Part shown: piece after piece, positions 12,228 through 39,941 of the stretch
Numbering within the stretch: the first letter of the stretch is position 1
Layout: every line of letters begins with the position of its first letter
NCBI GenBank assembly: GCA_020073615.1
Contig: JAIQEX010000032.1
Coordinates: 1-52,756 of the forward strand
DNA: 52,756 nt
Source: Terriglobia bacterium
Lineage (GTDB): Bacteria; Acidobacteriota; Terriglobia; Bryobacterales; Bryobacteraceae
Direction: 5' to 3'
Position numbers and translations under genes: made by a program
The notes under the pieces: generated by a model
What the model saw: the letters and a program-made list of their open reading frames with translations, nothing else
What the model was told of the DNA's origin: nothing
The model's database searches: none

Positions 12228-13136
12228 TCACTTTGCCGGCGCGACAATGGTGGCCCGAATGCGGTCGGTAAGCTGCTGGCGTAGGTCCTGTGGCATCTTC
12301 CATTTGATGTGGCTCAGGTGGTTCGTGTCGAAATGTAGAAGATCGAAATCGGTGTCCCGACAACAGTTGATGACATCCCGGCCGAGCGCACGGGCGAACC
12401 CGGCTTCGTAATAGACGCCGTTTCGGTGACCCGTGAAATCCGCGATGACGAACTGTGCCTGGCGGATCTCGCTCAACAAGCGGTCGCAGATGTCGTCGTT
12501 GTGGTGTAGTTCCTTCATGCGGATCGCCAGCAGCCCGCAATCCTGTTCGACGGCTGGCTTGATGCCCAGGAGATATGCTTCGTCCAGCTGCTCCGCGAAG
12601 GACATCGCCACGAAGCATCTCCCTGGAGTGCCGGCCGTGCCGGTGAGCGGCTCCACGGCGTCCCAGCCCTTGACCGTGAGCGTCAGCGCATCGTCGGACA
12701 TGCTCTCGAGGTATCCACTGTCTGTAGCGTGGCTGACCAGAAACCGGCACTCTTGTGGCGAGGCTGCGTCGAATGCCGGGTAATCGAAATCTTCCTGGAT
12801 CCGAAAGAACTCACCGGGGGATCGTGACTTCGCAGCCGAATAGCGCAGGACCTTCAGGACCTTCTGCCGAACCGGGGTATTCTTGTGTGCCGCCGCCACC
12901 TGGTCCCAGTTGTCCGTGCGTAACAGGAGCGTAGAATGGCTTTCGGCAGCCTGCCGGGTCGCAGCGGAGATCGCCGCAAGCGTGGTCTCGTCGGCGGAAC
13001 GCGGATTGGAGGAACACTCCATGGTGATCCGGTACTCGCCACAGCGGCGGCATCTAACGAAGTAGACCCTGGTGTCGAAATCCTGCGAAATGTCATCGGT
13101 TTCCAAGCCGCAAAGGAAACAAGCGGTTCCCGTCAT
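12228..13136 (-). CDS. zinc-ribbon plus nucleoside deoxyribosyltransferase-like protein
   Basis: The 302-residue protein has an N-terminal zinc ribbon (C6-x2-C9 and C29-x2-C32). A helical middle part contains a winged-helix-like stretch (VRQKVLKVLRYSA). A C-terminal domain from about residue 168 resembles the nucleoside 2-deoxyribosyltransferase/TIR-like Rossmann fold. It reads CFVAMSFAEQLDEAY, then DDICDRLLSEIRQAQFVIADFT, then GVYYEAGFARALGRDVI, with a candidate catalytic glutamate in YYEAG. Such domains act as sensors or NAD/nucleotide-cleaving effectors in prokaryotic conflict systems. It stands alone on the minus strand without an obvious partner. A housekeeping nucleoside role is unlikely given the zinc ribbon. 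The specific function is inference. Confidence 0.65.
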   Translation of the reverse strand: MTGTACFLCGLETDDISQDFDTRVYFVRCRRCGEYRITMECSSNPRSADETTLAAISAATRQAAESHSTLLLRTDNWDQVAAAHKNTPVRQKVLKVLRYSAAKSRSPGEFFRIQEDFDYPAFDAASPQECRFLVSHATDSGYLESMSDDALTLTVKGWDAVEPLTGTAGTPGRCFVAMSFAEQLDEAYLLGIKPAVEQDCGLLAIRMKELHHNDDICDRLLSEIRQAQFVIADFTGHRNGVYYEAGFARALGRDVINCCRDTDFDLLHFDTNHLSHIKWKMPQDLRQQLTDRIRATIVAPAK

Positions 13137-28061: not shown

Positions 28062-29252
28062 TTACTCTTCCGGCTGGCGAAGACACCCCGGCAGCTTGAG
28101 GCCCTTGGGCTTCTTTAGCTGGTCCCAGTACCGCGCCACGCAGTTAAACACCGACGGCGGCAAGTCCGATGGGCGGTCCGCCAGAAGGTATAGATAGTGC
28201 CCCAGCGGGCACTGAATTCCGTTCTTGCGCAGAATCTCGTGGACCTGGATGTTTCCCGTAAAGCCCAGTGCGGTAACGATGGCGCCGGCCGACACCTTTT
28301 CTCCCGCGACACGAATATACTCCTCCAACCAGCAGCAGACCAGGGCGGCCAGCTTGGTAAGGTTGGCGCGCGGGTCGCTGGCGCTGACAAAGGCGTTAAT
28401 CGTTCTCTTCCCATCCGGGCTATGAGCCTGATCGTTGCGGAGCCCGGCAAGCGCCTTCTGAACATCGTCCCCGATGTCGACCTTTTCGGCGGCCTCTTTC
28501 AATGCGCACAGGAAAGTCCGAACCGCGGCGGCCAAGCCCGGGTCGTCGTCACGCCCGTCAAAGTCGGCGAAAATCGACCGGAGGGCGATCGACTCCATGT
28601 GATAACCGTAATACATCGTGAGCCCCGAATCGAGAAGAGGCTTCATCGAGCGGCTGTCGCCGCGCATGGCCGCCGCGAACTGCTGTTGCAGTTCTTCCGC
28701 GTCAAATTCGATCCGGCTGTTCCCGGCGGCGGTCTTCACCTGTTCGCGGTAGCGACGCATCAGCGTTACAAAGACGTCCTTGTCGTCCGGGCCCTTCAGT
28801 TGGTCGATCTGCGTCCGAAAATACTCGAAAGAGGGTTGCGCGACCACCGACAGCGGCACGCGCCGCTCCATGGCACACAACAGGCTATAAGCGAATACTG
28901 CGACGTAATTGTCTCGCATATCCTTGTGCACGCCCGTGCCTATCGCCCATGCAAATGGCCATCTCACGCCATGCTGGCGCGCCGCCAGAGGTAGAGCGTG
29001 CAGGAGCCCATAGGGATTGAACACTTCGGAATCGTAGGGCGCCGTCCCGTCCTTCGAAAAATCGACGTCGATCAGGAGCAGGTCGAACTCCGGAACGCGA
29101 TCCTCCAAATACCACCGCAGGTGCTGGGTCCAACGCGTCAAACGATCGGTAGGGCCGGCCCCGGCAGTAATGCAGGCCACCGGATCGATATAGCGTATGT
29201 GGTCATATCGCTTGACTTGATCGTCTATGATCAGAATTCGCAGGTTTCGCAT
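28062..29252 (-). CDS. receiver-like protein with helical C-terminus, partner of the kinase-like protein
   Basis: The 396-residue protein begins like a response-regulator receiver: RILIIDDQ with the acidic pair at D10-D11, and LLLIDVDF with candidate phospho-acceptor D62 (or D64). GLLHALPLA and FAWAIGTGVHKD follow. The rest of the receiver is altered by a loop insertion, and no DNA-binding or other known output domain follows, only an alpha-helical C-terminal region (residues 130-396). It lies six bases after the kinase-like gene and is probably co-transcribed with it. Transcriptional activation is unlikely without a DNA-binding domain. The output may be protein-protein contact or an unknown activity. 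Confidence 0.55.
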   Translation of the reverse strand: MRNLRILIIDDQVKRYDHIRYIDPVACITAGAGPTDRLTRWTQHLRWYLEDRVPEFDLLLIDVDFSKDGTAPYDSEVFNPYGLLHALPLAARQHGVRWPFAWAIGTGVHKDMRDNYVAVFAYSLLCAMERRVPLSVVAQPSFEYFRTQIDQLKGPDDKDVFVTLMRRYREQVKTAAGNSRIEFDAEELQQQFAAAMRGDSRSMKPLLDSGLTMYYGYHMESIALRSIFADFDGRDDDPGLAAAVRTFLCALKEAAEKVDIGDDVQKALAGLRNDQAHSPDGKRTINAFVSASDPRANLTKLAALVCCWLEEYIRVAGEKVSAGAIVTALGFTGNIQVHEILRKNGIQCPLGHYLYLLADRPSDLPPSVFNCVARYWDQLKKPKGLKLPGCLRQPEE

Positions 29253-29258
29253 TGCGGT

Positions 29259-31568
29259 CTAACTCCGGAACTTCAGCCTGGCTGGAAAGTACTCGTAGGT
29301 TGAGCGGACCCACCGGACCCCCTGGCTTGTGCCGAGCGGATAGGCGTGGAAATCCGGTGTTGTGATCTCGACGGCACGGTTGAACAGCAGGTTTCTCACA
29401 CGCTCCAGGAGCTCGGGACGGGGCAGTTTCTCTCCGTAAATGGGATTCCACAGAGTCACCTGGACGCTGTCACGTTTCACTTCAATTTCGTAGTCGAGGT
29501 GCAGAGCGCCGTTCTGGCTGAAATGTTCGTATTCGGTGTCGTCGCGGATGATGCCTTTGACGGCGTTGCGCACCAACTCCACCAGGGTTGCGAGCATCGC
29601 TCGCGGGCCCTCCTCGCGATTCGGGTCAAAGGGCGGCATCAAGCCGGCGGCGCTCATCCGGGGCAGGTCTCTGGCATCGATCTCTTCCAGCACCGCGGGC
29701 TCTTTCAGGGACACCCGCCGCACCATGAAGGAGCGGCCACGAAGCCGCATTTCGGAAACATAGCCCGCTACGGCCTCCCTCAGAGCCTGGTGGCACCGGG
29801 CCGCAATTTCCTGAAAATCCGCGGCCGACAGGTTTCGCGGCCAATCCGGCAACCTCGCCTTCTCCGCCCAGTCCGCCGAGACGAAGCCTCCGGCGGCCTT
29901 CTGGAGATCCGCGAGCAGGCGAGCCGTCCCGTACAGGCCCTGAACATTGTTCGACGCTTCCGCAGCCAAGTCCTGCAACGTTGCCTCACCCCTGTCTTCC
30001 GCCTCGCGAAGCAACATCTGCATTCCGCTGCTCAGTTCCCACACCCGATTGTAGAGGTCGTGGACGAAGAAATACGATACCCGGTCCAGCGCCCGTTCTT
30101 CTTCCAGCAAATTGTGCATCGTCGGCCATTGCGCGGACGATACCAGGGTACGCACCAACAGAATCTGTTGGCTCAGGTCCATCCCGTCAACCGGCCGGAA
30201 TGTGCCGATGAAGTACGCCACCCGCCTGGGAGTGCGGCTCCCGGACTGCAGCGATTTGCTCCAAGGGCTGAACTGAAACGCCACGATATAGCGCGGCTTC
30301 GGGTCCATCCACCGCTGAAACAACGCCAATTGGCAGTTGAGCGGACCCTCGCTCTCCAATTCCGCCGGAGTGCGCGAGCGCGAGAACTCCTGGCAGAAAT
30401 TGCGCAATTTGCCGATCGATGCGCTTCCTTCCAGCAGGGGGTGTAATGCATCCAGGGCTCTATCTCCGCGGTTCGCGCACTGGCGCTTCAGCCACACCCA
30501 GAACGGATTGTCCATCAGGGGGCTCAGTACGGCGTGCTGTTCCGGATCATATCCCTGCATTCCGAGGAGATCCCGCACCCAAACGGCCATGCGCTTCGCC
30601 AGTCCGGTTTCCGCCGGCAAGAGGCCCAGCCCGGTGAAGACGTCCTGAGAGAGTTCGGACCGGCCGGAGTAGTTCTGATGAACCAGCTGGCCGCCGACGA
30701 AAACAGGTTGCAGGCTTGTGCTCAGGTACTCGAGTAGGAGAAAGCTGATCTCGCCATCGGGAACCCAGAGCACGGCGTTCTCGCGCGCGATTCGGGTGAT
30801 ATCCTTACGCTCGCGGTTCATGAACTCCAAGAAGCTCGTCCGCCGGTTCACACGGGCCCGGTTCAGGCTAACGAAGTGGGCCGACATTACGGCTGCTGCA
30901 AGGTGATCGGCCAAGGCCTCATAGATTCGGAAAGGGGAACTGGAAGAAGAAGAATAGCCGGGGACCTGTTCCGCCATGCTCTTCAGGTGCTGGCTGAGAT
31001 CCTGCTGCGCACGATCCGGAAACTCCTCCGGCCGCCCGCCGCCGTCATACACCCAATCCCGCAGTTCGGCCAGAAGAGGCTGCCTGCGCTCGGAGTCCAC
31101 CTTTGGAAACAGGAAAGCCCTGCGGTTGATCTCCTCCCAGGCCTGCCCGAAACAGGAAGGCGCCATCCGTTGGCAATTGATCGTCTGCAGGGGCTGAATA
31201 ACGGGCAACCGGAGCGCACGCGAAGGCAGGTCGACCTCGAGGCGCGTAATCTGGGTGGTCCCGAATTTGTCCACCACTACCACGCCGCCTTGCAACCACC
31301 CAAGTTCCTTCAAGTGCCGCCGTACGGGCGCAGACCACAGATACGCCTCCAAAGGCACTTTCGAGGGATCGCTCTCCCCGAACAGCACGCTGAGAGCGGC
31401 GGTATGTGCGGCGATCTCGTCCCGAAGCTCGGGAGAGGTCAAATGCGAAGTTGGATACGTCCCGAGTCCGGGACTCCAATCGGACACGCCCAGCTTATGA
31501 ACGTTCCGAAGCAGTTCGGCGATCGGTTCCGAGACGTGAGCCTGGCCCATGAGAACGCTTTTCAGCAT
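29259..31568 (-). CDS. divergent histidine-kinase-like (GHKL) protein
   Basis: The 769-residue protein keeps parts of a histidine kinase at its end. FFVHDLYNRVWEL with H503 could be the H-box. LVELVRNAVKGI at about 661-673 is an N-box. YPLGTSQGVRWVRSTYEYF at about 740-762 looks like a G2-box. The G1 position reads LWNPIYGEKLP instead of DxGxG, so ATP binding may be altered. The first ~480 residues contain no known sensor domain I can name and no membrane segment, so it is probably soluble. A receiver-like gene follows six bases later. This is not a standard two-component kinase, and family assignment is inference from the motif remnants. Confidence 0.5.
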   Translation of the reverse strand: MLKSVLMGQAHVSEPIAELLRNVHKLGVSDWSPGLGTYPTSHLTSPELRDEIAAHTAALSVLFGESDPSKVPLEAYLWSAPVRRHLKELGWLQGGVVVVDKFGTTQITRLEVDLPSRALRLPVIQPLQTINCQRMAPSCFGQAWEEINRRAFLFPKVDSERRQPLLAELRDWVYDGGGRPEEFPDRAQQDLSQHLKSMAEQVPGYSSSSSSPFRIYEALADHLAAAVMSAHFVSLNRARVNRRTSFLEFMNRERKDITRIARENAVLWVPDGEISFLLLEYLSTSLQPVFVGGQLVHQNYSGRSELSQDVFTGLGLLPAETGLAKRMAVWVRDLLGMQGYDPEQHAVLSPLMDNPFWVWLKRQCANRGDRALDALHPLLEGSASIGKLRNFCQEFSRSRTPAELESEGPLNCQLALFQRWMDPKPRYIVAFQFSPWSKSLQSGSRTPRRVAYFIGTFRPVDGMDLSQQILLVRTLVSSAQWPTMHNLLEEERALDRVSYFFVHDLYNRVWELSSGMQMLLREAEDRGEATLQDLAAEASNNVQGLYGTARLLADLQKAAGGFVSADWAEKARLPDWPRNLSAADFQEIAARCHQALREAVAGYVSEMRLRGRSFMVRRVSLKEPAVLEEIDARDLPRMSAAGLMPPFDPNREEGPRAMLATLVELVRNAVKGIIRDDTEYEHFSQNGALHLDYEIEVKRDSVQVTLWNPIYGEKLPRPELLERVRNLLFNRAVEITTPDFHAYPLGTSQGVRWVRSTYEYFPARLKFRS

Positions 31569-31647
31569 ATGGATACGGCCATTTCAAAAGCAACCGGCAC
31601 GAAACACCATGGCTGCCCAGCTTCCCGTCCGGACGGCGGCGAGCCGC

Positions 31648-31914
31648 TCACAAGGGCGGCTCGGCGGCCGGGCGGGAAGACCGGACGGCATCCTCGCGGC
31701 CGTCCGGCGTCGCGCGGATCCGGTCCTGCCGCGCGAGTCTGTTGGCTTTGGCGACGTAGTCGCGGGTAGCGGGGATCGGAAACCAACGCACCTCCCATGA
31801 ATCCCGTTCCGAAAACTCCCAGGTGCGGCCGTTCCATTCGCCGATGACCAGGTAGACTCCGAGCTCGGCCCGGCTCTCATTCCACATTACCCGAAACGCT
31901 TCTCTATGCCTCAT
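31648..31914 (-). CDS. 88-residue protein, unknown, in the kinase-like gene run
   Basis: The small protein has an N-terminal half rich in Trp and aromatic residues (MRHREAFRVMWNESRAELGVYLVIGEWNGRTWEF, broken into short strands) and a disordered Arg/Pro-rich tail. AAGGG lies five bases before the ATG. It sits 79 bases upstream of the kinase-like gene on the same strand and 37 bases after the zinc-ribbon gene, so it is probably part of the same transcript. I recognise no family. A small beta-sheet protein is likely. Confidence 0.5.
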   Translation of the reverse strand: MRHREAFRVMWNESRAELGVYLVIGEWNGRTWEFSERDSWEVRWFPIPATRDYVAKANRLARQDRIRATPDGREDAVRSSRPAAEPPL

Positions 31915-31951
31915 AACACCCTTCCTTTCGCTTACCTGGCCAGCCCCACGG

Positions 31952-32173
31952 TCAGGCTGCCGGCTCCACCGGGAAGCGAAGTGCGTACAGGTCTGTCGGT
32001 TCCGAGCTGGGCTCGGTCCACTGGTGTTCAGGCCAAGGCGGGCCGAACACGGCTCCACAGTAACTGCAGATCAGCAATTGAATCTGACACCCCGTCTCAC
32101 CCTCCGTCAGCCGGCTCAGGGAGCGGGAACAAAAACAACAGGTGGCGTGGCAACGGACGTTCTGGCTTTCCAT
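31952..32173 (-). CDS. 73-residue zinc-ribbon-like protein
   Basis: The small protein carries two CxxC pairs, C12-x2-C15 in TCCFCSRSL and C36-x2-C39 in ICSYCGAVF, plus C8 and C29. This fits one rubredoxin-type zinc site. GGAGAG precedes the ATG at good spacing. It is the first gene of the minus-strand run that leads to the kinase-like and receiver-like genes. Its 5' end faces the disulfide reductase gene across a 178-base divergent spacer, which probably holds the promoters. A regulatory role for the run is plausible but unproven. Confidence 0.5.
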   Translation of the reverse strand: MESQNVRCHATCCFCSRSLSRLTEGETGCQIQLLICSYCGAVFGPPWPEHQWTEPSSEPTDLYALRFPVEPAA

Positions 32174-32351: not shown

Positions 32352-33251
32352 ATGCCCGAGCGGTTCGATCTGGTGGTGGTGGGGACCGGCGCAGCGGCTT
32401 CCACGGTGGCGTTTGCCTGCCGTAAAGCGGGATGGAGCGTCGCGGTGGCCGAGGCGCGGCCGTTCGGAGGCACCTGCGCCAATCGCGGGTGCGATCCCAA
32501 GAAAGTGCTTGTGGGGGCGGCTGAGGCACTCGATTTTGCGCGGCGCATGGGCCCGCACGGGGTCGCCGCCGAGGGTTTGCGCATCGACTGGCCCGCGCTC
32601 ATGCGCTTCAAGCGCTCGTTCACCGACCCGGTACCGGAAAATACCGAGCGGAGCTTCGCCGCCGCGGGCATCGCCGCCTTTCACGGAACCGCCCGCTTCC
32701 TCGACCCGCAAACGATCGCCGCCGGCGGCGCTACCCTGCGGGCGGAGCATTGGGTCATCGCCGCGGGCGCCGCGCCGGCGCGGCTGGGCATCCCCGGGGA
32801 GGAGCTGCTCATCACCAGCGACCAGTTTCTGGAAATGGCGCCGGTGGCGGGATACGAAGGCCGCATCGTCGCCGCCAACCTGCTCGCGGGCAATCATCAA
32901 AAGCCCAACTACCTGGGCTGCGCCAGCACCGTGTTCAGCATTCCGCCGCTGGCCTCGGCGGGCTTGACCGAAGAAGCGGCGCGCCGCCAGGGCCTGCAAT
33001 TCGACGTCCGCCAGGACGACACCACGGGCTGGTACGCGTCGCGCCGCATCGCCGAGGAGTGCTCGGGATACAAAGTGCTGGTGGAGCGCCCCGGCGGCCG
33101 GATTCTGGGCGCGCATATTCTGGGCGACGGCGCCGAGGAGCTGATCAACGTGTTCGCCCTGGCCATCCGCGGCGGCCACACCGCCCAACAGGTGAAAGAG
33201 CCGCTCTACGCGTATCCCACGCACGGCTCGAACATCCAATATATGGTTTAG
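32352..33251 (+). CDS. internally deleted FAD-dependent pyridine nucleotide-disulfide oxidoreductase
   Basis: The start is normal for the glutathione/mercuric reductase family: FDLVVVGTGAAASTVAF for FAD, and the redox pair C42/C47 in GGTCANRGCDPKK. The end is the dimerisation domain (PVAGYEGRIVAANLLAGN, then YAYPTHGSNIQYM). Near residue 162 the sequence jumps from TSDQFLEM, which should lead into the NAD(P)H domain, directly to the post-NAD region. About 150 residues are missing in frame, including the second GxGxxG and the AAGD FAD motif. The frame is otherwise intact with a strong AGGAGG site, so a shortened protein would be made, but reduction by NAD(P)H should be impossible. It could be a recent pseudogene or repurposed. 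Confidence 0.8.
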   Translation: MPERFDLVVVGTGAAASTVAFACRKAGWSVAVAEARPFGGTCANRGCDPKKVLVGAAEALDFARRMGPHGVAAEGLRIDWPALMRFKRSFTDPVPENTERSFAAAGIAAFHGTARFLDPQTIAAGGATLRAEHWVIAAGAAPARLGIPGEELLITSDQFLEMAPVAGYEGRIVAANLLAGNHQKPNYLGCASTVFSIPPLASAGLTEEAARRQGLQFDVRQDDTTGWYASRRIAEECSGYKVLVERPGGRILGAHILGDGAEELINVFALAIRGGHTAQQVKEPLYAYPTHGSNIQYMV

Positions 33252-33261
33252 CCATCACCCC

Positions 33262-34032
33262 GTGCCCGCCACCGCCGTTGTCGATATCCGCCATCTCTCC
33301 TGCGCCTTGGGCGGCCGCTCGGTGCTGCGCGACATCAGCCTGCGCGTGGAGGAAGGCGAGACGGTGGTGCTGCTGGGCCGCAGCGGTTCCGGCAAAACCA
33401 CGCTGCTGAAAGTTGTGAACGGCCTGGCCACGCCATCGGCCGGCGAGGTCTGGTTCGAGGGCCGGCCGGCCGAAGGGTGGGACCCCATCCAACTGCGCCG
33501 CCGCATGGGCTACGTCATTCAGGACGCGGGACTGTTTCCGCACTGGACGGTGGCCGACAATGTCGGATTGGTGCCGCGCCTGGAGAGCTGGCCGCCGCAA
33601 AAGGTGGCGGAGCGCGTCGAGTTTCTGCTGAATGCCGTGGGCCTGGCCCCCGCCGAGTTCGGCGCGCGCTATCCCCGCCAGCTTTCGGGCGGACAGAAAC
33701 AGCGCGTGGGCATCGCGCGCGCCCTGGCGGCCGATCCGCCGCTGCTCCTGCTCGACGAACCCTTCGCGGCCCTCGACCCCATCACCCGCTTCGAGCTGCA
33801 GCGCCAGTTTCTGGCGTTGCGGCGCACCGTGCGCAAGGCCGCTCTGTTCGTGACGCACGACGTGCGGGAAGCGCTCATGATGGCCACGCGCGTGGCTCTG
33901 TTGCGGGATGGTGCGCTCGATCTGGTCCTGACGCCCGCGGAGTTTCTGGCGGCGCGCACCGCCGAGGCGAAGGCGTTCCTCGCCAGCCTGGAGGAAAACT
34001 GGAGACCGGATGAACAGCCGCCTCGCATCTGA
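33262..34032 (+). CDS. Opu-type osmoprotectant ABC transporter ATP-binding protein
   Basis: The 256-residue ATPase has the Walker A GRSGSGKTT at residues 39-47, the Q-loop, the signature LSGGQKQRVGIARAL, the Walker B LLLLDEPFAALDP and a switch histidine in VTHD. The sequence resembles OpuCA/ProV-type proteins without the C-terminal CBS pair, so it is at the short end. It couples ATP hydrolysis to uptake of glycine betaine, choline or a related compound at the inner membrane. The GTG start lies ten bases after the reductase stop, and the permease overlaps its end by 23 bases. Confidence 0.88.
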   Translation: MPATAVVDIRHLSCALGGRSVLRDISLRVEEGETVVLLGRSGSGKTTLLKVVNGLATPSAGEVWFEGRPAEGWDPIQLRRRMGYVIQDAGLFPHWTVADNVGLVPRLESWPPQKVAERVEFLLNAVGLAPAEFGARYPRQLSGGQKQRVGIARALAADPPLLLLDEPFAALDPITRFELQRQFLALRRTVRKAALFVTHDVREALMMATRVALLRDGALDLVLTPAEFLAARTAEAKAFLASLEENWRPDEQPPRI

Positions 34033-34627
34033 AATCTTCTCGCTCACGCTCGAGCACCTGGAGCTGGTGCTGATCACGCTCGCCATCGCGGCCGCGGTGG
34101 CGATCCCCGCGGCCGTGCTGCTGGCGCGGCACGCGGCCGCACGCCGCTGGGTGCTCGGCTTCGCCAATATCGCGCAGACCATCCCCAGCCTGGCGCTGTT
34201 CGGGTTCTTGCTGCCGCTGCCCTTTATCGGCGGCATAGGAAAGCGCACCGCCATCATTGCGCTCTGCTTGTACGCGCTGCTGCCCATCCTGCGCAATACG
34301 CTCACTGGCATCCGGGGAGTGGATGCCGCCGTGCGCGAGTCGGCCGTGGCCATGGGAATGACCCGGCGGCAGATTCTCTGGCTGGTGGAGTTGCCGCTGG
34401 CCGTGCCGTCGATTGTGGCCGGATTGCGCATCGCCGCGGTCACCACCATCGGGACGGCCACCATCGCGGCGTTCATCGGGGCCGGCGGGCTGGGCGTCTT
34501 CATCGTGCGCGGCATTGCGATGATGGATAAGCCGCAGATCCTGGCGGGCGCGGTCCCCGCCGCGGCCATGGCGCTGGTGGCCGATGAGGCGTTGGAATGG
34601 ATCGAGCGAAGACTATCGCCTGCCTGA
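34010..34627 (+). CDS. Opu-type ABC transporter permease
   Basis: The 205-residue inner-membrane protein has about five to six hydrophobic segments (LVLITLAIAAAVAIPAAVLLA, LALFGFLLPLPFIGG, IIALCLYALLPIL). The EAA-like loop GVDAAVRESAVAMGMTRRQILWLVELPLAVPSIVAG contacts the ATPase. The size fits OpuCB/OpuCD single-core permeases. It is overlapped by both neighbours and so is translationally coupled. Only one permease gene is present, so the functional core is a homodimer. Confidence 0.88.
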   Translation: MNSRLASEIFSLTLEHLELVLITLAIAAAVAIPAAVLLARHAAARRWVLGFANIAQTIPSLALFGFLLPLPFIGGIGKRTAIIALCLYALLPILRNTLTGIRGVDAAVRESAVAMGMTRRQILWLVELPLAVPSIVAGLRIAAVTTIGTATIAAFIGAGGLGVFIVRGIAMMDKPQILAGAVPAAAMALVADEALEWIERRLSPA

Positions 34628-35472
34628 GCGTGCTGCTGTTGGCCGCGTGTGCGCGGCGGCCGGCCATCGTGGTGGGCTCCAAGAATTTCACCGAACAGGT
34701 GGTGCTGGGAGAAATCCTGGCACAACAGATCGAGCGGCGCACGGGCATCCGCGTGGAGCGGAAGCTCAACCTGGGAGGCACGCTGCTGGCGCACGCGGCA
34801 CTGGTGGCGGGCGCCATCGACCTGTATCCCGAGTACACCGGCACCGCGCTCACCGCCGTCCTGAAGCAGGCGCCGCTCCGCGATGCCGCGGGCGTGCTGG
34901 CGGCGGTGCGCGCAGCGTACCAGCGGCGGTGGCGGCTGGCCTGGCTCGCCCCCTTGGGCTTCAACAACACATTCGCCATGATGATCCGCGGGGAGACCGC
35001 CCGCCGCGCGAAGCTGGCCACGCTTTCTGACGCCGCCCAAAGCCAGCCGTGGCGGTTGGGCGTCGGCTACGAATTCCAACAGCGGCCGGACGGCCTCGAC
35101 GGCCTGCTGAAAACCTATGGCCTGCGCACGGCGGGCGATCCGGTCACCATGGACCTGGGGCTGCTCTACTCCGCGCTCGAAAGCCGCACCGTGGACATGA
35201 TCGCGGCCAATTCCACCGATGGCCTGGCGGCCGTGAGCGGCGTCGTCATTCTCGAGGACGACCGCCACTATTTCCCGCCGTACCAGTGCGCGGTGGTCGC
35301 GAGAGAAGACACGCTGGCGCGGATTGCCGGCCTGCGCGAGGCGCTGCAACAGCTTGCCGATAAGCTGCCGGACACGGTCATGCGCCAGTTGAACTATCGC
35401 GTGGACGGCGAGCGCCGCCCGGCGGCGCAGGTGGCGGCGGAGTTCCTGGATACGGCTATCGGAAGGAAGTAG
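34597..35472 (+). CDS. osmoprotectant ABC transporter substrate-binding lipoprotein
   Basis: The 291-residue protein has a lipoprotein-like N-terminus (CLSVLLLAAC with the likely lipid-anchored cysteine). It follows the type F substrate-binding pattern: VVGSKNFTEQVVLGEILAQQIE, GAIDLYPEYTGTALTAVLK, and DLGLLYSALESRTVDMIAANSTDG. Such proteins bind glycine betaine, choline or carnitine in the periplasm. It overlaps the permease by 31 bases, so translation is coupled. Its last 33 bases occur again at 39511 as part of a decayed 430-bp duplication. Confidence 0.87.
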   Translation: MDRAKTIACLSVLLLAACARRPAIVVGSKNFTEQVVLGEILAQQIERRTGIRVERKLNLGGTLLAHAALVAGAIDLYPEYTGTALTAVLKQAPLRDAAGVLAAVRAAYQRRWRLAWLAPLGFNNTFAMMIRGETARRAKLATLSDAAQSQPWRLGVGYEFQQRPDGLDGLLKTYGLRTAGDPVTMDLGLLYSALESRTVDMIAANSTDGLAAVSGVVILEDDRHYFPPYQCAVVAREDTLARIAGLREALQQLADKLPDTVMRQLNYRVDGERRPAAQVAAEFLDTAIGRK

Positions 35473-35868
35473 TCCTGCCCGGGGGACACGTGTTACCATT
35501 GTGACTGCGCAAGTAAAACGGACGTGCCCGTATGAAATTGGGCTCCAGGAATTCAATGCTTCGCTTCATGGGAATGTTCGGATTGGCCAGCATCTTTCTG
35601 CTGATCTCTCCCAAGCTCCGGGAGTCGGCGCTCGCCGGCCTGGCTGTTGTGATTAATGCGATCATAGCCTACGGCCCGTACTCCTACATCGGGCTGGCTC
35701 TGGCCGCGATCGGCGGCATGGCGATCGTGCTCAAGTCCCAGCCCCGGCCGCGCTGAAGCATGCAACTTGCGGGCCCGCGCTACGCAGAATGCAATGATCA
35801 CAAGGCAGGAGGCAGCACCTGAACTGTCCTGGCGATCGTGGCTACGACCCTCGCCTGAAGGGACACAT
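35440..35868. repeat. 430-bp direct repeat, upstream copy
   Basis: This copy includes the last 33 bases of the binding-protein gene, the intact small ORF at 35532 and the last codons of the large secreted protein gene. The same segment lies 4071 bases downstream at 39511-39938 with roughly 90% identity by eye. The two copies bracket the large gene in direct orientation. Confidence 0.85.
35532..35756 (+). CDS. 74-residue small membrane protein (intact copy)
   Basis: The short protein has a hydrophobic segment MLRFMGMFGLASIFLLIS and a second, AIIAYGPYSYIGLALAAIGGMAIVL, so probably two helices, and a basic end. I recognise no family. A broken copy exists at 39603, where a two-base shift in CTGATC versus CTGAGTTTC and a new stop truncate it. 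The presence of two copies shows this is a real coding segment that is decaying after duplication. It is convergent with the large gene. Confidence 0.5.
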   Translation: MKLGSRNSMLRFMGMFGLASIFLLISPKLRESALAGLAVVINAIIAYGPYSYIGLALAAIGGMAIVLKSQPRPR

Positions 35869-38800
35869 TCGTTGCCACGCTGGCCGTGCCCACGGTTATC
35901 GGAACACTTAGCTGCGCCGCTCCCGCCGGCACTACCACCGTTGCCGGCACGGAGATCAACGCCGGGTTGGAGCTAGTCATCATTACCGTGACGCCACCCG
36001 CCGGCGCCACATCCGTCAAGTACACCACTACCGTCGCGCTTCCTCGCTGGAACGTTGCCCCTGTGTACAGTCCGTACACGTCAATGGGCGGCGGAGGCAG
36101 CACCTGGACTGTCCGGGTGATTGTGGCTACAACCTTTGCCTGAAGGGACACATTTGTTGCCACACTGGTCGCTCCCACGGTTATCGGAACACTTAGCTGC
36201 ACCGCCCCCGCCGGAACCACCACCGTTGCCGGGACGGAGATCAACGACGGGTTGGAACTGCTCATCGTTACCGTGATGCCGCGTGCCGGCGCCGCAGCCG
36301 TCAAGTACACTACGACCGTCGCGTTCCCTCGGCGGAACGTTGCCGCGGTGTACACAAAGGCCACATCGATGGGCGGTGGAGGCAACACCTGAGCAGACCT
36401 GGTTACTGTGGCTATGACCTTCGCCTGAAGGGACACATTCGTCGCCACGCTGGCCGCGCCCACGGTTATCGGAACACTTACCTGCAACGCTCCCGCCGGG
36501 GCCACCACCGTTGCCGGCACGGAGATCAATGCCGGGTTGGAGCTGCTCATCGTAACCGTGACGCCGCCCGCCGGTGCCGCCGCCGTCAAATACACCACCA
36601 CCGCCGCATTCCCCCGCTGGAACGTCGCCGCTGTGTAGAGATCGCGAATATCGACCGGTGGCACCACCTGGACCGTTCTTGTGATCGCGGTTACGACTTT
36701 TGCCTGAAGGGACACATTCGTTGCCACGCTGGCCGCGCCCACGGTTATCGGAACGCTGAGCTGCATCGCTCCCGCCGGCATTACCACCGTTGCCGGCACG
36801 GAGATCAACACCGGGTCGGAGCTGGTCATCGTAACCGTAACGCCACCCGCCGGCGCCGCCGCCGTTAAGTACACCACCACCGTCGCGCTTCCCGGCTGCA
36901 GCGTCGCCGCTACGCTCAGATCGCGAATATCCATCGCCGGCGGCGGCGGCAACACCTGAACGGTCTTCGTGATCGCGGTGCGCACCATCGCCTGAATCCC
37001 AACGCCGGTCGCAGCAGTGACTTCGGCCACGGTTATCGGAACACTCAGTTGGGTCGCCCCCGCGGGCACCATCACCGTTGCCGGCAGGGAGATGACTGCC
37101 GGGTTGGAGCTGGTCATCGTGACCGTAATGCCGCCCGCCGGTGCTGCCGCCGTCAAATACACCACCACCGTTGCGCCTCCGCGCTGCAACGTTGCCGCTG
37201 CGTAGAGACCCCAAAGATCGATCTGCCCATAAGCCGCCGGTATCACTCGCGTGGTTGCCTGCCCGATTCCACCGTTTAGCGATGCGGTCAGCGTAACCGA
37301 AACGGGTTGCGTAACATTCGCCGCCGCGACCGTGAACCGCGCACTTTCGGCGCCAGCCGGTACCGTGACAGTACCTGGTACGGCCACAACGCCGGGCGTG
37401 CCGTCGGATTGCGCCGCTAGCACGACCGAAGCGGCCTGGCTTGTCGCCTGCGACAGCCAGACAGTCCCGGCGGCAGTCCCGCCTCCGGTCACCGCCGGAT
37501 CGATCGTCACCGCCTGCAAGGCCGCCTGAACACCAGGCTGCCCGCCACCGCTGCCCGCCAAAAACGCCGACGGAACGGTCGTGCCTTGCGTCCTCCACCG
37601 TACATAGTCGAAGGTCCAACGATAGTTCTGATTGAACACCTTGCCGCTGTAGCTGAAGTCCTGCGCCATCGCGGCGGCGAACATCTGATCGCCGCGCTGT
37701 AACGATGCGGAATCTCCCGTTAGTGCCCAATACCACGCGTAGGCAGGGGCTATCAGGTTATTAAGCCCGGGCTCATAGGTAGGCGGCACATCAAGAGTGC
37801 TGTAAGCCAGCCCCTGAGCCGCCGGATCCCATGCATTCAGCCAGAGCCAATCCAACATTTGCTTGATCGCCCCGGGAATGCGCAAATCGTGGCTGAACTC
37901 ATAATACTCAATGAGCGCCTCGGCCATGAGCCCGTCGAAAAACGGCTGATTGATCTGTGTCGTGTTGTTCGATGAAAAGAGCTGACTAAAGTGTCCTAAG
38001 CCAAAGTCCACCGCTCTGTCAAGCCGTATATCATGCGGCGCCCCAAGGCGCTCGGCAATTGTGTAGGCCTCGATCACATAGGCCGTCTCGCGAATCAGGC
38101 CTACGCTTACACCGCCCGCTATGGCCCCGTAGGGGGAAGTCTTGGACAATGCAATCGCGGCGTCACGGCTTCCTGTGTCCCCAGTCCGCCAATAGTTCAT
38201 AGCGAGCCCGTGCGGAAATACGCGCCAACCAGGAACCTGTGCGCCGCTTTGTAAGATATAGTCCCGGTACTGCGTTACAATATTGAGTGCGCATGGATTC
38301 CACTGTTGCGGGCTGCCCGTGTAATCGGCGATCTGGAAGTACGTCCTGCCGCCGTCGTAGTACCAAATCTGCGGCTCGGACCCGAAGACCATTGCCTGTT
38401 CCGGGTTACACCACTTGGCGCCCAGGCTGCTCATCGTCTGTTGCCAGGTGCTTAACCCGGGAATTTCCGGCGCTGGACTCGCGAGCCTGACGGGTGGTGC
38501 CGGCAAGTTCGCCACGCTGAAGCTTATTAATGTATCTCTTTCAATGCCGCCAGCCTCGGTTCGAAGGGTCGCGCTATAATTTCCGGGAGGGGTTGTTGCC
38601 GATGTGCGCACGCGAAGTAGCGGAGGGCTGTTAACGGTGTTGTTACCGTTGTAGCACCATTGGCGGCCGGTTGCATCCCAATAGGAATCGTTGTGTTCCT
38701 GGGTTAGGTCGGTATTATAGGCGCAGATCACATGAAAAGTCACGCCTGGGGGCAGCCCCAGAGTTTCGTCGAAATACAGGTGAGCGACGCTTCCTCCCAG

Positions 38801-39331
38801 TAAGACCGACGTGATGCCGATATACAAGTCATGTCCCGCATATACGCTGCTGGCTCCATGAGTGTCGAGCCGGTAGTCCGCAGGCGCCGCCGGATCGACG
38901 TTGGGCGTCGAGAAGGTTTCGGACGCGACCAGTGCCGCACTAGACGCCGCTACACCCTGTGCCGCCGATACGACATAGTATCTATAGCTCGTCCCCGGAG
39001 AAACCGGGAGAGTGACACGATGGCTCGTAACCAACGCGCCATCGGGCGCAGTTCCATACCAGATATCAGGTAGGACTACTTGAGAGGTGGCTGGCCTGTC
39101 GGTTTGCCAGGTGACGATCGCTGTACCGGGGGACTGAGCCACGGCCGCTATATTCGTAAGTACGGGTGCTGTCTGGGCTATGGCACTGTAAGATTCGCAT
39201 GCCAGAAGAACTCCAACGGCCATGATTGCATGAAGAAATGCAATAGACGGTTTGGCCCATGACAGGACCTTGCGCAGGAACAGCGGCACCGGAAAGACAG
39301 AGGCCGCTAGCGTCTGGGTGTTAGGTTCCAT
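35798..39331 (-). CDS. large secreted protein with FN3-like, alpha-toroid-like and tandem ~95-residue repeats
   Basis: The 1177-residue protein starts with a signal-peptide-like segment (LHAIMAVGVLLACESYSAIAQ). A fibronectin-III-like part follows (residues 50-125, with AIVTWQTDRPATSQV and TLPVSPGTSYRYYVVSA). The long middle (about 290-610) is helical and rich in Trp/Tyr/Asp (GLAMNYWRTGD, YEPGLNNLIAPAYAWYWALTGD), possibly an (alpha/alpha)-toroid carbohydrate-active domain, but no catalytic residue can be fixed. The last ~475 residues are five tandem repeats with the motif ATVVVYLTAAAPAGGVTVTMTSSNPALISVPATVVVPAG. A more degenerate sixth lies before them. It probably acts at the cell surface. 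Confidence 0.7.
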   Translation of the reverse strand: MEPNTQTLAASVFPVPLFLRKVLSWAKPSIAFLHAIMAVGVLLACESYSAIAQTAPVLTNIAAVAQSPGTAIVTWQTDRPATSQVVLPDIWYGTAPDGALVTSHRVTLPVSPGTSYRYYVVSAAQGVAASSAALVASETFSTPNVDPAAPADYRLDTHGASSVYAGHDLYIGITSVLLGGSVAHLYFDETLGLPPGVTFHVICAYNTDLTQEHNDSYWDATGRQWCYNGNNTVNSPPLLRVRTSATTPPGNYSATLRTEAGGIERDTLISFSVANLPAPPVRLASPAPEIPGLSTWQQTMSSLGAKWCNPEQAMVFGSEPQIWYYDGGRTYFQIADYTGSPQQWNPCALNIVTQYRDYILQSGAQVPGWRVFPHGLAMNYWRTGDTGSRDAAIALSKTSPYGAIAGGVSVGLIRETAYVIEAYTIAERLGAPHDIRLDRAVDFGLGHFSQLFSSNNTTQINQPFFDGLMAEALIEYYEFSHDLRIPGAIKQMLDWLWLNAWDPAAQGLAYSTLDVPPTYEPGLNNLIAPAYAWYWALTGDSASLQRGDQMFAAAMAQDFSYSGKVFNQNYRWTFDYVRWRTQGTTVPSAFLAGSGGGQPGVQAALQAVTIDPAVTGGGTAAGTVWLSQATSQAASVVLAAQSDGTPGVVAVPGTVTVPAGAESARFTVAAANVTQPVSVTLTASLNGGIGQATTRVIPAAYGQIDLWGLYAAATLQRGGATVVVYLTAAAPAGGITVTMTSSNPAVISLPATVMVPAGATQLSVPITVAEVTAATGVGIQAMVRTAITKTVQVLPPPPAMDIRDLSVAATLQPGSATVVVYLTAAAPAGGVTVTMTSSDPVLISVPATVVMPAGAMQLSVPITVGAASVATNVSLQAKVVTAITRTVQVVPPVDIRDLYTAATFQRGNAAVVVYLTAAAPAGGVTVTMSSSNPALISVPATVVAPAGALQVSVPITVGAASVATNVSLQAKVIATVTRSAQVLPPPPIDVAFVYTAATFRRGNATVVVYLTAAAPARGITVTMSSSNPSLISVPATVVVPAGAVQLSVPITVGATSVATNVSLQAKVVATITRTVQVLPPPPIDVYGLYTGATFQRGSATVVVYLTDVAPAGGVTVMMTSSNPALISVPATVVVPAGAAQLSVPITVGTASVATNVSLQARVVATIARTVQVLPPAL
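35801..37222 (-). repeat. array of five ~285-bp coding repeats
   Basis: Five tandem units encode 93-96 residues each and lie, from the C-terminal end of the protein, at 35801-36085, 36086-36370, 36371-36655, 36656-36934 and 36935-37222. Each holds AAATxQxGxATVVVYLTAAAPAGG, VPAGAxQLSVPITV and an LPP-rich linker. The three at the C-terminal end are the most alike, which suggests recent expansion or gene conversion. Confidence 0.9.
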
Positions 39332-39510: not shown

Positions 39511-39938
39511 GAGTTCCTGGATACGGCTATCGGAAGGAAGTAGTCCTGCCGGGAGCCAGGTGTTGCCATTGTGGCTGCAATAAGTAAAGCGGACGTGCCC
39601 GTATGAAATTGGGCTCCAGGAATTCCATGCTTCGCTTCATGGGAATGTTCGGATTGGGCAGCATCTTTCTGCTGAGTTTCTCCCAGGCTCCGTGAGTCGG
39701 CGCTCACCGGCCTGGCTGTGGTGACTAACGCGATCGTAGCCTGCGGCCCGTACTCCTACATCGGGCGGCGCTGGCCGCGAGCGGCGGTATGGCGATCATG
39801 CTCAAGTCCCAGCCCCGGCCGCGCTGAAGCATGCAACTTGCGGGCCGGCGCTGCGCAGAATGCAATGATCACCAGGCAGGAGGCAGCACCTGAACTGTCC
39901 TGGCGATCGTAGCTGCGGCCCTCGCCGGAACGGACACG
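39511..39938. pseudogene. decayed downstream copy of the 430-bp repeat
   Basis: This segment repeats 35440-35868. It holds the end of the binding-protein gene (without the rest), a small ORF (39603 onward) broken by a frameshift and stop, and the last ~23 codons of the large-protein gene. It lies between the 5' end of the large gene and the stop of the TPR gene. No functional gene remains in it. With the upstream copy it defines a 4071-bp duplicated spacing. Confidence 0.8.
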
Positions 39939-39941
39939 CAC

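Follow-up and report, generated by a model that had tools for sequence, protein, structure and literature searches.

A putative two-component-like gene pair with a highly divergent kinase-like protein in a member of the Terriglobia

The closest described systems and the gene pair

Transporter-coupled kinases include BceS with BceAB and PhoR with PstSCAB (PMC6978683), and Detocs is a family of three-gene two-component systems for defense, the best described of which cleaves ATP with a purine nucleoside phosphorylase (PNP) effector (PMC11249213, PMC9966839). Among vWA-associated effectors, a passage of an eLife 2020 paper on conflict systems mentions a receiver domain that occurs sporadically, and no histidine kinase (PMC7159879). 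Here we consider two adjacent genes on the minus strand of contig JAIQEX010000032.1 from a Terriglobia bacterium, the whole 52,756 nucleotides of which we call the window (C197 in a source genome of 6.96 Mb and 252 contigs). The first, an open reading frame (ORF) whose conserved part was delimited by BLASTP, encodes a kinase-like protein of 769 residues (P0001, 29259..31568), and the second, which begins 6 bases after it, encodes a receiver-like protein of 396 residues (P0002, 28062..29252). This gene pair is real, rare and conserved, and, judging from sequence comparison, we see an approximately even chance that it is an accessory, cytoplasmic two-component-like pair made up of a highly divergent kinase-like protein and a receiver-like partner. 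We arrive at this reading because the two genes are adjacent in all four genomes in which they were found, because a His, an N-box and an Asn at the G1 place are conserved, and because the profile matches of both proteins are stronger than those of unrelated controls.

With two-component systems the pair shares the adjacency of kinase-like and receiver-like genes, the positions of the H-box, N-box, acidic pair and acceptor Asp, and the order of DHp followed by CA. It differs from them in that the pair has no match to the kinase or receiver models of Pfam, the G1 box reads Asn-Pro or Asn-Cys and no G2 box is conserved, while the receiver-like partner is recognizable only as far as β3 and is without a known output domain. 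The likeness to BceS and PhoR is that the kinase-like gene stands next to ATP-binding cassette (ABC) transporter genes in two relatives, although the importer there is of the NMT1/THI5 type and comes with a methyltransferase, hydropathy shows no membrane segment in the kinase-like protein, its partner has no recognized DNA-binding domain and, in the window, the pair's row holds no importer. With Detocs the pair has in common a kinase-like protein and a receiver-like protein without a recognized DNA-binding domain; unlike Detocs, it has a two-gene core, no PNP or other effector by Pfam and, in the window, no PADLOC match. The three genes plus effector that characterize Detocs were not found here, and an effector may yet be hidden in the C-terminal region of the receiver-like protein. 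Our literature search, judged mostly from titles, returned no publication title on such a kinase-like/receiver-like pair.

Distribution, motifs and profile comparisons

When the kinase-like protein was compared with 257 genomes of the order, three had a match: its own and two others, G594 and G598, the latter from the same family as the window's genome. In both relatives the kinase-like gene is overlapped by the next one, whose product is related to the 396-residue protein. A profile of the three receiver-like proteins detected a fourth member in G432 (E 6.5e-13), where the gene just before it encodes a kinase-like core that is open at the contig end. Strong matches to a four-row receiver-like profile and to a kinase-core profile fell in the same four of the 257 genomes, and the kinase-like and receiver-like genes stand together in all four; these counts are lower bounds, since part of the first-look candidates was scored per genome (at most four candidates for the kinase-like protein and in the phylum searches, six for both receiver profiles and eight for the kinase-core profile). 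BLASTP identity is 24-32% for the eight member pairs that align at E < 1e-7, and the G432 kinase-like protein is tied to the other members by profile only.

Across the phylum, 396 evenly sampled genomes were searched as well: the window's receiver-like protein alone matched no genome but its own, and the receiver-like profile gave its own genome and one match in G231 (E 3e-4) that we rejected: it covers profile positions 140-231 only and, by eye, the ORFs at that locus are without a receiver-like start. Among the 257 genomes of the order, a further 23 receiver-profile matches in 22 genomes (E 0.025-0.79) were short and were dropped as noise, not individually inspected. The only other kinase-profile match at E up to 0.01 in the 257 genomes, a G422 protein (E 0.009), is an ordinary histidine kinase by motifs read by eye. 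No relative was found among plasmids (six proteins searched), phages (two) or viral contigs (six queries), and of two short-peptide-pattern scans of genome contigs, which would miss distant relatives, one was empty and the other returned the G598 locus only.

The original prediction had presented the pair as the end of a two-component-like run of four minus-strand genes. The four ORFs and the gaps of 37, 79 and 6 bases between them are correct, yet conservation was seen for the last two genes only, and what stands of the run is the kinase-like/receiver-like pair, by adjacency, motif positions and profile matches. The co-occurrence that had been proposed as a check likewise holds for these two genes in 4/4 genomes but not for all four genes together: directly upstream of the pair the relatives carry an ABC ATPase gene (G594) or a methyltransferase gene (G598), while the G432 contig, at 3150 bases, is cut inside the kinase-like gene, so that its upstream gene is not visible. 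The two small minus-strand ORFs 5' of the pair, one of 88 residues (31648..31914) and one of 73 residues that has CxxC motifs and is zinc-ribbon-like (31952..32173; sub-threshold NMD3 match, E 0.0045), were compared with family libraries only; a counterpart of the 88-residue ORF was not seen by eye at the three other loci, no homologue search having been made for either.

The conserved part of the kinase-like protein is a DHp/CA-like core, residues 491-769 (29262..30098, delimited by profile and alignment and counted from the start codon). BLASTP aligns residues 491-768 with the G594 protein and residues 494-769 with the G598 protein, at 27% identity in each case, and gives no counterpart to residues 1-490 in the relatives, the G432 protein being cut at its start. 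In the N-terminal part of the G594 protein, Pfam recognizes a methyltransferase domain of class I (Methyltransf_31, E 2.1e-12), and the best 25 of its 51 NCBIfam families are all methyltransferases or related enzymes. As had been noted, there is no membrane segment in the window's kinase-like protein (best 19-residue Kyte-Doolittle mean 1.27), and the receiver-like protein has no strongly hydrophobic stretch (1.16).

The motifs earlier read in the two proteins were found where they had been placed: H503 (in HDLYNR; codon 30060-30062), the N-box ELVRNA (residues 664-669; 29562-29579) and NPIYG replacing the G1 box (residues 708-712, within LWNPIYG 706-712; 29433-29447) in the kinase-like protein, and D10-D11 and D62 in its partner. 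All four members share the His and the Glu and Asn of the N-box (EL..NA), and in each of them the G1 Asp is replaced by Asn, as Asn-Pro or Asn-Cys. A G2-like box had also been proposed, but no invariant glycine follows the G1-like Asn among the four members. A GHKL domain has N, G1 and G2 boxes; here the N-box is kept, the G1 Asp is lost and G2 is not conserved, and we do not file the pair in the two-component family because this full box set was looked for and not found.

An HH comparison of the kinase-like profile with the 30 best-scoring of 95 kinases from the same genome gave a score of 30.4, which exceeded all 200 of 200 column shuffles (best shuffle 22.3). In a forced full-length alignment (mact 0) the H-box, and with it the candidate phospho-acceptor His, fell on the SHEIRTP H-box of true kinases, the N-box on their NA-containing N-box and NPIYG on DTGIG, the comparison itself standing at Prob 15%. 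The best match of the kinase profile in the PDB, AgrC (E 0.53), does not align in register at the G1-like site and was not used as evidence, and the window's proteins taken singly reached no better than E 0.15 in the PDB.

For the receiver-like proteins, the N-terminal parts of the four members were compared with the 30 best-scoring of 130 receivers from the same genome, with Prob 78.6 and E 1.7e-5, a score reached by none of 200 shuffles; with one member left out, Prob was 50-89. What is matched, at this Prob of 79, is β1-β3 with D11 and D62, which in the window's protein corresponds to residues 3-66 (29055..29246) with the pair D10-D11 and the candidate acceptor D62 (codon 29067-29069), and 4/4 members have Asp at the positions of D11 and D62. 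The predicted receiver-like start is supported by profile for residues 3-66, and the resemblance does not extend beyond residue 66. The half with the Thr/Ser and Lys is unaligned; by eye, its Thr/Ser and Pro could fit a receiver pattern in which the Lys is lost. In the PDB the receiver-like profile has a single match, to a response regulator, which at E 0.27 we did not count as significant. Residues 136-396 (28065..28847), a candidate output region common to the relatives, have no Pfam match, and PDB profile matches of these remaining 261 residues lie at E 0.08 or worse. Around residues 324-346 the sequence resembles a helix-turn-helix by eye only, again without a Pfam match, and a transcriptional output is conceivable.

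How far do these matches rise above chance? In crossed and short-chain dehydrogenase/reductase (SDR) controls, in which the receiver-like proteins were set against kinases or 20 SDR proteins and the kinase-like proteins against receivers or SDR proteins, E was 0.28-0.48, and reversed templates gave E 0.11-0.13. Several results nonetheless weigh against a two-component-like pair. Although SDR proteins are not receivers, true receivers matched them at E 0.0097, and therefore the kinase E of 0.0018 is not far above unrelated α/β folds, whereas the receiver E of 1.7e-5 is. The kinase match is weak (Prob 15%), falling to Prob 3-24% with one member left out and 0.3-4.4% for single sequences; the window's receiver-like protein alone gives Prob 8%, and the receiver match spans only 56 columns, with the β4-β5 half not aligned. 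Neither HATPase_c nor HisKA of Pfam matched any of the four members, Response_reg matched no member scanned, and the window's two proteins are absent from their own genome's 95 HATPase_c and 130 Response_reg matches; when the window's proteins were compared with Pfam, NCBIfam and PADLOC, neither a kinase nor a receiver was recognized. AlphaFold models of both proteins, made from two-row alignments, were unusable (predicted local distance difference test, pLDDT, 35 and 33, every residue <50), and because pLDDT is below 50 throughout both, the folds are unproven. Also, no importer is co-directional with the pair in the window.

Such results could be taken to mean that the two conserved proteins have a function other than signaling and that their motif resemblances arose by chance: no family library names a kinase or a receiver, the models failed and single-sequence matches are weak. 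We consider this very improbable, as it would have to accommodate two independent resemblances, to both halves of one system, in adjacent genes and stronger than controls.

One further point against an active pair is that the kinase, from its motifs, may be dead, since G2 is not conserved and the G1 Asp is lost. The two proteins could then form a pseudo-two-component pair that has the same folds, does not autophosphorylate, and signals by a ligand- or nucleotide-driven change of shape and by partner binding. The Asn in place of the G1 Asp in 4/4 members and the unconserved G2 agree with this, and so does a second receiver half, where the conserved Lys would be expected, that is not recognizable. 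However, a dead system would have no need of the His, of Glu and Asn in the N-box or of Asp at the positions of D11 and D62, all of which are kept in 4/4. Active kinases of the HPK10 class, AgrC among them, can also have Asn in G1. We regard a pair of this kind as unlikely, though worth serious consideration.

If the two-component-like pair is instead an active one, its kinase-like protein would consist of a variable N-terminal input region, a dimerization/phosphoacceptor (DHp) helix with H503 and, after it, a shortened GHKL-like nucleotide-binding domain in which the N-box is kept and Asn-Pro stands for the G1 Asp. We infer that this protein would use ATP and would act, by phosphotransfer, on the receiver-like N-terminal part of its 396-residue partner, with D62 as the candidate acceptor, and that the receiver-like part would switch its own C-terminal region of ~260 residues, the putative output. 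Should the pair work in this way, one could learn from it whether Asn-Pro can stand in for the G1 Asp of a GHKL kinase, and it would provide an output region to identify. The standard models, which have 95 HATPase_c and 130 receiver matches in this genome, miss the pair, and counts of signaling systems would consequently miss such members.

Importer linkage and the question of defense

Indications of a possible signal come from the two relatives with longer rows. In G594 the order is substrate-binding protein (NMT1_2), permease, ABC ATPase with a C-terminal extension, kinase-like protein with the methyltransferase domain, and receiver-like protein; in G598 it is ABC ATPase, permease, substrate-binding protein (NMT1), methyltransferase, kinase-like protein, receiver-like protein and a lysine-decarboxylase/LOG-type gene. 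The importer, of the NMT1/THI5-type ABC kind in both rows, the methyltransferase and the pair are encoded on the same strand, by genes that overlap or follow each other closely, and because the order of the importer genes differs and the paired proteins are ~30% identical, this is not simple synteny. Kinase-transporter gene linkage is thus present in G594 and G598 and not in the window's row, the G432 contig being, at 3150 bases, too short to show it. The pair is perhaps linked to an importer; in G594 and G598 the input would probably be the state of the NMT1/THI5-type importer together with the methyltransferase from the same row, and the window's input region would differ from that of these importer-linked relatives. 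The link in two relatives offers a concrete hypothesis for the signal, and transporter-coupled kinases such as BceS and PhoR set a precedent for it (PMC6978683). A more far-reaching proposal, which we advance tentatively and with considerable doubt, is that of a lineage-restricted signaling family far from all described kinase classes, in which the nucleotide site is Asn-Pro, the cytoplasmic inputs (a methyltransferase, an importer or the 490-residue region) can be exchanged, and a new output region linked to the receiver acts on something non-transcriptional.

Could the pair instead belong to an anti-phage or other conflict system with Detocs-like logic? Phage defense had been suggested in the original prediction, and it finds little support; the window's four proteins have no PADLOC match. 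The patchy distribution (4/257 genomes) would suit defense, as would the G+C content at third codon positions (GC3) of the pair, 0.74 and 0.75, values that rank with the six lowest when 29 genes of the window are listed by hand, although same-length stretches with equal or lower GC are not rare (32/195) and foreign origin of the pair is, from GC, at most a weak hint. Near the G598 copy, ~6.5 kb before its kinase-like gene, lie prokaryotic E2 family D and ThiF-type genes (L009:417-1920), also to be counted in favor; Prok-E2/ThiF-type genes of this kind are seen in PRTRC loci. At the G432 locus, the start of a DUF4062 gene (E 5.1e-21; L012:2897-3148) follows 124 bases after the receiver-like gene, the contig ending inside it, and two proteins have weak PADLOC matches, to Csx19 (E 0.0039) and CARF_HEPN (E 0.052). 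The strongest pointer to defense is that residues 86-178 of the G594 kinase-like protein, in its methyltransferase part, match mad2 of PADLOC at E 1.9e-19, as does the G598 methyltransferase at E 6.2e-5; among the seven relatives' proteins compared with PADLOC, low-scoring DNA methyltransferase models were also obtained for G594, and three proteins had no match. But the mad2 match comprises 90/492 profile positions and stays within a methyltransferase domain to which housekeeping methyltransferases such as PrmC are similar too, and we read it as possibly generic. In addition, Pfam revealed no nuclease, NADase, membrane or nucleosidase effector, the C-terminal region being uncharacterized; importer rows surround the pair in 2/3 relatives; and no phage, plasmid or viral-contig copy was found. 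A role in defense is, in our view, improbable.

Other features of the window

On the other strand of the window, at 32352-35472, lie an importer of the OpuAC type and a flavin adenine dinucleotide (FAD) oxidoreductase. Both are probably unrelated to the pair, because same-genus G510 keeps oxidoreductase and importer together and the pair was not found there: G510 has no match to either pair protein or to the pair's DNA, both flanks lying at contig ends. The pyridine nucleotide-disulphide oxidoreductase of the window (32352-33251, plus strand) has 299 residues and its 88%-identical G510 counterpart 448; 149 codons are missing in frame at ~32840, just after the matched part of Pyr_redox_2, by deletion or an assembly fault.

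Elsewhere, a minus-strand gene at 12228-13136 encodes a 302-residue protein with a Cys-rich start bearing CxxC pairs; its GC3 of 0.75 is low for the window, and it has a sub-threshold nucleoside deoxyribosyltransferase match (E 2.4e-5). Finally, a repeat-rich protein of 1177 residues (35798-39331) is flanked by two minus-strand ORFs, at 35553-35801 and 39756-39941, that have nearly the same translated stretch, ARKLHASARPGLGLEHDRH, which suggests duplicated DNA.

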